From Planococcus halotolerans (GTDB lineage: Bacteria; Bacillota; Bacilli; Bacillales_A; Planococcaceae): DNA of 64,000 nt. Numbering within the stretch: the first letter of the stretch is position 1; each line of letters begins with the position of its first letter. The stretch covers positions 248,001-312,000 of the forward strand of contig NZ_QLZR01000003.1 of the NCBI RefSeq assembly GCF_003289955.1, read 5' to 3'. Under the pieces are notes generated by a model, which worked only from the letters and a program-made list of their open reading frames with translations, ran no database searches and was not told where the DNA came from. The position numbers and the translations under genes were made by a program. This document shows, piece after piece, positions 13,863-14,969 of this stretch.

Positions 13863-13909
13863 AAAAGACGTTTCGGGCCAGCAGCTGACCTTCCGAAACG
13901 TCTTTTTTA
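13863..13909. terminator. Bidirectional terminator
   Basis: AAAAGACGTTTCGG pairs with CCGAAACGTCTTTT, with T runs on both strands. It lies between the fusion gene and the convergent selenoprotein gene. Confidence 0.85.
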
Positions 13910-13913
13910 AATT

Positions 13914-14703
13914 TTATTGTAATTTGTCCTGATAAACAACCCGTGTCTCCGATGGAAGGCCCGATGGAAGGGCCAAAAGCTCAAGCAATTGGTCCACAAC
14001 TTTCTTCCGTGTATCGAAGTCGAAGGGTTCGCCGCAAGGCCGGCCCATCTTGAACGGAACATGCATTGTGCGGGGAGCTGCGACTTTATCGGTGACTTCC
14101 GGGAACAGCGTGATCATGGCGGTTGGTATATTTGAAGCTTCTAAAGCCCGGGCATACAGCCCGAGTACATTGTGGCAGGATCCTCAGCCAGGCACAAGCA
14201 ACGCAGCGTCGATTCCTTCGTTAAGGAACAGCTCGACAACTTTTGGAATCGATTCCTTTTCGGCTAATGCCGTATCCAGGATGCCGCCGTTCAATCCGAT
14301 ATTAATGGATGAAGGGGATCCGATTTTTCCGTCAGCAGCAGCTTGTTTCAGCTGCGGCAATGGAAAGACGATTGTCGGATCCGATTTTGCAAACTTCGTA
14401 TCGATGTATATATGCGTCACTGTCAGTTCCTGTTCCGAAATATCCGATGGGATGATTCTGAAAGTATGGTCGCCGGCCGGGTTATCGACATCAAAAGGTT
14501 CGTCGGTTTCGAGGTGGACACCTGCAGTTGATACTAGTGCTACTTTACATAGGTTCAAAGGCTTTGATAAAAAAGCTTCGGGCAGACTCGTATGTTCCCT
14601 CATATGGCTCATGGTGAATTTCTTGTAAGCTCCCGTGAAGTTCCCTGAAAAAGTCCGCGACATTTTCGACTTGATCTTTGTCTTCATTTTCATAGATCCG
14701 CAT
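13914..14703 (-). CDS. Probable UGSC-type selenoprotein (glycine/sarcosine/betaine/D-proline reductase B-like) with in-frame TGA
   Basis: Reverse-strand gene interrupted by TGA at 14184-14186. Before it, the frame encodes the GrdB-like pattern LCKVALVSTAGVHL...DEPFDVDNPAGDHTFRIIPSDI...LLVPG; after it the same frame continues for 89 codons as GSCHNVLGLYARALEA...MGRPCGEPFD to a TAA. Reading TGA as selenocysteine gives U-G-S-C, the redox motif of the UGSC family (CGSC in cysteine forms). A hairpin 19 bases downstream fits a bacterial SECIS. The N-terminus is uncertain: ATG 14693 is 11 bases from GGAGG but its first ~40 residues look unlike coding sequence. The frame from ATG 14703 looks like protein and joins the conserved frame if one T of a six-T run (14569-14574) is skipped. 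So either a frameshift or sequence error lies there. Redox substrate unknown. Confidence 0.75.
14147..14165 (-). promoter_or_regulatory. Candidate bacterial SECIS hairpin
   Basis: In the mRNA, CUCGGGC (14165-14159) pairs with GCCCGGG (14153-14147) through 7 base pairs, closing a 5-base loop UGUAU. The loop begins 25 bases after the UGA and has a G in its first two positions; both agree with the reported bacterial SECIS model (loop 16-37 bases downstream, G near the loop start). Confidence 0.55.
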
Positions 14704-14969
14704 TCCTCCGTTTCGGCTTGATTAATGTTAATAATTCGCTGTCTGATTGCGAACTCCTTTATTGTAATAGCGGTTAGTTGACAGGCGGCACAAATCTGAA
14801 GATAAAGTAAAGAACGTATGACTTCTCACCTAAAACGGTATATTCCATAAGACTATTGATGCTTTTATGTGAAATATAGTAAAAAATTAATGTTTTATAT
14901 TGAATATTATACCAATTCAGAATATTATATAGTTAGCTTCAAAATACAGGAATAAGAAAGGAGAAAAAA

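Follow-up and report, generated by a model that had tools for sequence, protein, structure and literature searches.

Analysis of a 64,000-nucleotide stretch of a Planococcus halotolerans contig, called here the window, indicated that a gene apparently broken by a stop codon is almost certainly one intact gene whose stop is read as selenocysteine (Sec). We consider it very probable that this gene encodes a selenoprotein, that the UGA at 14184-14186 is decoded as Sec, and that the product is a PrdB-like protein that works without a PrdA/GrdE-type partner and runs a selenol-thiol redox cycle. The reading frame, the conservation of the site, the decoding genes of the organism, a hairpin downstream of the UGA and the missing partner all lend computed support to this explanation.

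Locus and reading frame

The features of the locus, all on the minus strand, are as follows.

13917-14693, minus strand: predicted coding sequence for the 259 residues of an orphan PrdB-like selenoprotein, Sec being residue 170; the match to the family extends across the TGA
14184-14186, minus strand: in-frame TGA, predicted to be read as selenocysteine (U170); all 17 aligned family genes have TGA here, as do all 23 full-length genes of the two paralogue types (261 genomes)
14175-14186, minus strand: U-G-S-C redox motif, Sec170 and Cys173, read from the sequence; both positions invariant in a 22-row alignment
14147-14165, minus strand: predicted bacterial SECIS hairpin with a 7 bp stem and loop UGUAU, from published criteria and synonymous-codon conservation
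13914-13916, minus strand: TAA stop codon of the full-length gene, from the sequence
14705-14709, minus strand: probable Shine-Dalgarno sequence GGAGG, 11 nt before the ATG, judged from the sequence
13863-13906, minus strand: inverted repeat just 3' of the stop with A and T runs at its flanks, a probable transcription terminator (-23.7 kcal/mol, z -5.57)

An open reading frame of 169 amino acids runs on the minus strand from an ATG at 14693 to the TGA, and the same frame stays open for 89 further codons (14183-13917) before the TAA, giving a gene that occupies 13914-14693 with the TGA as its sole interruption. With the TGA translated as U, the junction reads LLVPG-U-GSC-HNVLGLY. An earlier note on this DNA had described both the continuity of the frame for 89 codons and a VPG-U-GSC-H junction with a UxxC motif, and these were confirmed in the minus-strand sequence and the read-through translation, respectively. 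Of its outer coordinates, 13914 held, as the TAA lies there, but 14703 did not, since it belongs to another frame with several stops and the gene's own ATG is at 14693.

The piece before the TGA matches positions 23-146 of the PrdB model TIGR04483 (E 1.7e-21), and the piece after it, searched alone, matches positions 149-218 of the same profile (E 1.1e-6), directly following. Because the two pieces match consecutive parts of one model, the continuity of the frame is more than chance. A general reassignment of TGA was considered and rejected, as this codon ends 22 of the 56 non-overlapping open reading frames of at least 150 amino acids in the window. A simple terminator scan listed nothing at the inverted repeat, and a promoter scan returned one site, on the opposite strand, fewer than in shuffled sequences.

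Family placement and the missing partner

The read-through protein scored 126.3 bits against TIGR04483, below the cut-off of 300, and 22.8 bits against the Pfam GRDB model PF07355, above the gathering cut-off of 22; the first piece alone scored 24.5 bits against the latter. The earlier note had placed the gene in a UGSC/CGSC family. Kinship with the GrdB/PrdB superfamily stands, on the strength of TIGR04483 and PF07355, but the family label does not: neither the NCBI UGSC family model NF041046 nor the Pfam model PF24696 matched at E<=1, and UGSC family membership was rejected, the likeness consisting of the shared letters U-G-S-C. A Cys-form PrdB touches these two models weakly (1.3e-4 and 0.004), and the UPIC-type paralogue of the gene touches NF041046 at 0.07. 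A sequence search of the PDB gave nothing relevant, its two matches (E 0.23 and 0.31) being to rRNA methyltransferase.

A search for the PrdA/GrdE-type partner family PF09338 gave matches in 93 of 299 genomes from the phylum but none in that of P. halotolerans, and for this reason the gene should not be labelled a component of glycine or D-proline reductase. GrdA (PF04723) also had no match in the genome, and no control genome gave one either. The family profile matched 91 of the 299 phylum genomes, and among the matches listed one (G463) was without an internal stop. Close reading took in 19 of the phylum matches: 13 carry TAG-[U/C]-GTC-H, and from this sequence are taken as PrdB, and six carry UP[IL]C. 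At least 11 of the 13 PrdB rows have PF09338 within 2 kb, and no adjacent PF09338 accompanies the six UP[IL]C genes among the matches listed. A tree was built from 38 rows, omitting the short L091 row as well as L013, L014, L016, L018 and L020, which are close relatives or duplicates of rows that were kept. In it the UGSC genes formed a single clade (100/100), and orphans of either kind separated from PrdB (96/94), a split for which the program warned of long branches. On the evidence of cut-off, partner and tree, the gene was filed as a PrdB-like orphan and not as PrdB; by sequence it is a PrdB-like member of an orphan clade within the GrdB/PrdB superfamily.

The gene shares with PrdB of D-proline reductase its superfamily, a similar length and the motif U-G-[ST]-C-H at the same place, and PrdB, too, has a Cys variant (G463). 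It differs in falling under the family cut-off, in having no PrdA-type partner that could be found, and in its separate clade. With GrdB, component B of glycine, sarcosine and betaine reductase, it has in common the UxxC centre and a score just over the PF07355 cut-off, but it matches only the last part of this 347-position model, and the GrdE-type partner PF09338 was not found. Sequences reported from marine metagenomes of the surface ocean as "Proline reductase PrdB" are, in the passages concerned, likewise UxxC PrdB selenoproteins (PMC1088965, PMC2398784); those passages do not split partnered from orphan genes, and the counts may include orphans of the same kind.

We think it improbable, although worth weighing, that the selenoprotein acts as a complex with a partner subunit whose sequence has diverged too far to be detected. 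The UPIC-type paralogue offers a precedent, with a conserved gene of 96-101 amino acids upstream at five of five loci, for which the one copy scanned, that of the P. halotolerans genome, had no match at E<=0.1 in NCBIfam or Pfam. Against this, the UGSC gene has no neighbour cluster common to more than 5 of 17 loci, its own second half aside, and no functional pointer was found among its neighbours at the 17 loci compared. That the gene is a true PrdB subunit of D-proline reductase is very unlikely. TIGR04483 is indeed its best family match and its motif resembles the UGTCH of PrdB, but its 126 bits stand against a cut-off of 300, while the Cys-form PrdB of G463 scores 366 bits even as a fragment of 198 residues; the PF09338 gene that lies near at least 11 of the 13 PrdB rows was not found in the genome, and the tree, with its long-branch warning, sets the orphans apart.

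Conservation of the TGA and co-occurrence with selA

Full-length relatives in 261 genomes of the order comprised 18 genes of the UG[ST]C type and five of the UPIC type, and an in-frame TGA was present at the site in 18 of 18 and five of five, respectively, with no Cys form among the 23 (16 were read in one alignment and the other seven separately). Matches in G124 and G206 that also contained TAA only run into the terminal stop. A scan of named genomes, which finds close relatives only, gave 17 loci, 16 of them intact (14 in Planococcus/Planomicrobium, one in Halalkalibacter and one in Alkalihalobacillus) and all 16 with the TGA; these mostly come from the same genomes or species as the 261-genome set, and the two sets are not independent. 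The seventeenth locus, L047 in Rossellomorea, is a decayed remnant. The lowest protein identity to the P. halotolerans gene is 64 percent among 11 rows of the order and 50 percent among the named loci, and past the TGA the frame stays open and conserved in every full-length gene of the order and every intact named locus. The UxxC positions are invariant in 22 alignment rows with the TGA shown as C, the second position in row L023 being itself a TGA; the alignments left out the G105 fragments (L024 and L028) and the remnant L047. The PrdB of G463/L072 (TAG-C-GTC-H), outside the UGSC clade, has Cys where the TGA stands and is a homologue of the sort that the earlier note had proposed to look for; one distant full-length relative (P0065) has Glu at the site. 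On the computed evidence as a whole, decoding of the TGA as Sec is strongly supported.

All 20 carrier genomes were among the 27 of 261 with selA above the cut-off, and the gene occurred in none of the 234 genomes without selA (hypergeometric 2e-24, a value inflated by kinship). Seven selA carriers have no intact copy, six being without the gene and G105 having fragments only, which indicates that the gene is dispensable. The G105 remnant (G105:C21:248323-248572) is a UGSC gene reduced to fragments in a genome whose selA is intact.

These comparisons also bear on a reading in which the UGA serves as a selenium-dependent switch, the 169-residue product being functional and read-through secondary. 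Termination at UGA when selenium is low is known in general, and the short form is a plain open reading frame, but the stretch past the TGA is strongly conserved, with long invariant runs that include the resolving Cys, and the short form would be without the active site; we regard such a switch as highly improbable. The chance that the gene is decaying, with a TGA that stems from a nonsense mutation or from a sequencing error, is close to negligible, for although real remnants of the UGSC gene exist (the G105 fragments and the decayed Rossellomorea copy), the same TGA persists in all 18 full-length order genes and all 16 intact named loci across the identity ranges given above, the frame beyond it is open and conserved throughout, and the pseudogene alternative raised in the earlier note runs against the presence of the sel genes, the conserved TGA and the existence of a Cys homologue.

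Selenocysteine decoding genes

The reading of the TGA as Sec is matched by the gene content of P. halotolerans (3.62 Mb in 17 contigs, 99.99 percent complete). A tRNA-Sec gene lies at C1:432562-432654, scoring 62.7 bits (cut-off 47) and being the only one of nine matches above the cut-off, and ARAGORN assigned it the anticodon UCA. Because the tRNA-Sec model is a loose test when used alone (14 of 14 control genomes matched at E<=0.001, five of them above the cut-off), the ARAGORN call and the other sel genes carry the weight. The genome encodes selA (568.5 bits), and also selB (368.7 bits) and selD (348.5 bits), both above cut-off; selA and selB, which are divergent, and selD adjoin tRNA-Sec. 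The selD gene is itself full-length only through one TGA read-through (GG-U-GC), and at least three genes in the genome are predicted to require Sec: selD, the UGSC gene and the UPIC-type PrdB-like paralogue on contig C1. All four components named for checking in the earlier note, selA, selB, selD and tRNA-Sec, are present in the same genome, and its suggestion of Sec decoding in this organism is supported by the full kit together with the Cys homologue of the site in G463/L072. The gene content indicates a complete selenocysteine system in a Planococcus-type genome, and on this basis the organism should be able to decode UGA as Sec.

A GT4 glycosyltransferase gene is situated between tRNA-Sec and selD (L009:8965-9975, contig C1:432964-433971). 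It scores 302 bits against NF038229 (cut-off 400) and 93 bits against the SenB selenosugar synthase model TIGR04348 (cut-off 300). At E<=1e-60, the distribution of this SenB-related gene over the 261 genomes coincides exactly with that of selA above cut-off (27 genomes with both, 234 with neither), and it lies 2.4-3.1 kb from selA in the 26 genomes with both on one contig; it could possibly represent a selenosugar branch of the Sec cassette. The region beside selD (L009:11155-16424) also contains transporter genes resembling phnE/phnC, the gene of a substrate-binding protein that scores 173 bits against TIGR04553, a putative selenate binder (cut-off 250), and that of a YedE-like membrane protein with 137 bits to NF033796 (cut-off 350). 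Selenium uptake is a possible role for this set.

Predicted SECIS hairpin and synonymous-codon constraint

The predicted hairpin (14165-14147) has its stem beginning 18 nt and its loop 25 nt after the UGA. Published criteria for bacterial SECIS elements ask for a loop of 3-9 nt, 4-16 bp, a G in the first two loop bases, a spacing of 16-37 nt and an energy of -7.5 kcal/mol or lower (PMC13188914). Applied with a gapless stem, they admit this hairpin, with its 5-nt loop, G as the second loop base, 7 bp, a spacing of 25 nt and -12.4 kcal/mol, and also 15 of 16 relatives, five of five UPIC-type genes and selD; the relative L046 misses the energy limit at -7.3 kcal/mol. As 58 of the 2616 TGA triplets in the window (~2 percent) also pass, with this site ranking 14th by energy, the hairpin alone is modest evidence. 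All 17 aligned sequences allow the 7-bp hairpin, and four of its pairs vary on one side with pairing kept; no double-sided compensatory change was seen across these 17. A shuffle control of pair count had no power. Fold energy was unexceptional against shuffles in three cuts (z -0.88, -0.82 and +1.00), energy z-scores of a single hairpin being uninformative, and in the UPIC-type genes L025 and L026 the minimum-energy fold differs from the hairpin that was scored.

Synonymous codons gave a clearer signal. In codons +1 to +17 mean synonymous identity was 0.75, the mean for 185 columns being 0.49, and when 223 sliding windows were ranked, the top 12 all had their starts in the interval from -3 to +8 relative to the TGA. 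This conservation of synonymous codons is stronger evidence for a putative SECIS element than the hairpin.

Proposed mechanism

In the mechanism that we propose, ribosomes would read the UGA at 14184-14186 as Sec with tRNA-Sec, SelA, SelB and SelD, guided by the hairpin whose stem and loop follow 18 and 25 nt past the codon, and the PrdB-like product would work without a PrdA/GrdE-type partner. By analogy with GrdB and PrdB, we infer a selenol-thiol reductase in which the Sec170 selenolate would attack an electrophilic or disulfide-type substrate, resolution of the selenium adduct by Cys173 would yield a selenenyl sulfide, and this would be reduced again by a dithiol system of the cell, the presumed electron donor. 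A structure model with Cys in place of Sec (mean pLDDT 89.4, pTM 0.90) puts residue 170 in the turn between a strand (163-167) and a helix (173-186), with Cys173 at the helix start; strand-to-helix turns are a common place for redox motifs. The pyruvoyl cofactor of PF09338-type partners holds the amine substrate, and since no PF09338 was found and hence no pyruvoyl cofactor is evident, the substrate is likely of another kind than the amine.

Database records and significance

Of the 130 database relatives among the matches listed, the P. halotolerans protein included, 122 terminate with P-G or P-A, as at the Sec site. Another five terminate with different residues at apparently the same position, and the remaining three extend further: two have Trp at the site, which we read as TGA translated by another code, and a distant one has Glu. 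The expectation in the earlier note that automatic callers would split the gene in two describes what the databases mostly contain for its close relatives, which is half-proteins; NCBI names the half-length relatives "glycine/sarcosine/betaine reductase selenoprotein B family protein". PrdB-type selenoproteins have long been known, ocean samples included (PMC1088965, PMC2398784), and one 2006 count lists three selenoproteins in Bacillales (PMC1794560). Within a limited literature collection, we found nothing on Planococcus selenoproteins or on "PrdB-like" selenoproteins. The family is one of known but functionally obscure redox proteins that gene callers tend to halve, and the interest of the present case lies in the orphan clade and its half-length annotation, in a Planococcus-type genome with a complete Sec system and at least three predicted selenoproteins (selD, the UGSC gene and the UPIC paralogue). 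What such an orphan PrdB-like enzyme reduces when its usual partner is missing is a concrete question for biochemistry. A broader proposal, for and against which we judge the chances to be about even, is that the orphan PrdB-like selenoproteins, UGSC and UPxC together, form a class of self-sufficient Sec enzymes distinct from the partnered D-proline and glycine reductases, which would catalyse, in Bacilli and several further lineages of the phylum, a selenol-dependent reduction that is as yet undescribed.

UPIC-type paralogue

The small gene of 96-101 amino acids noted above lies directly upstream of the UPIC-type gene in all five loci of that family (L101:8666-8956, minus strand, and the corresponding position of L102-L105), and its product is possibly a partner of the UPIC-type protein. 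In one UPIC-type gene, L023 (G031:C1:1667654-1668412), the motif reads U-P-I-U, with two in-frame TGA codons at a distance of nine bases from each other, and one hairpin loop lies within SECIS range of both (26 and 17 nt); this gene may encode a double-Sec protein, or the second TGA may reflect a mutation or sequencing error.
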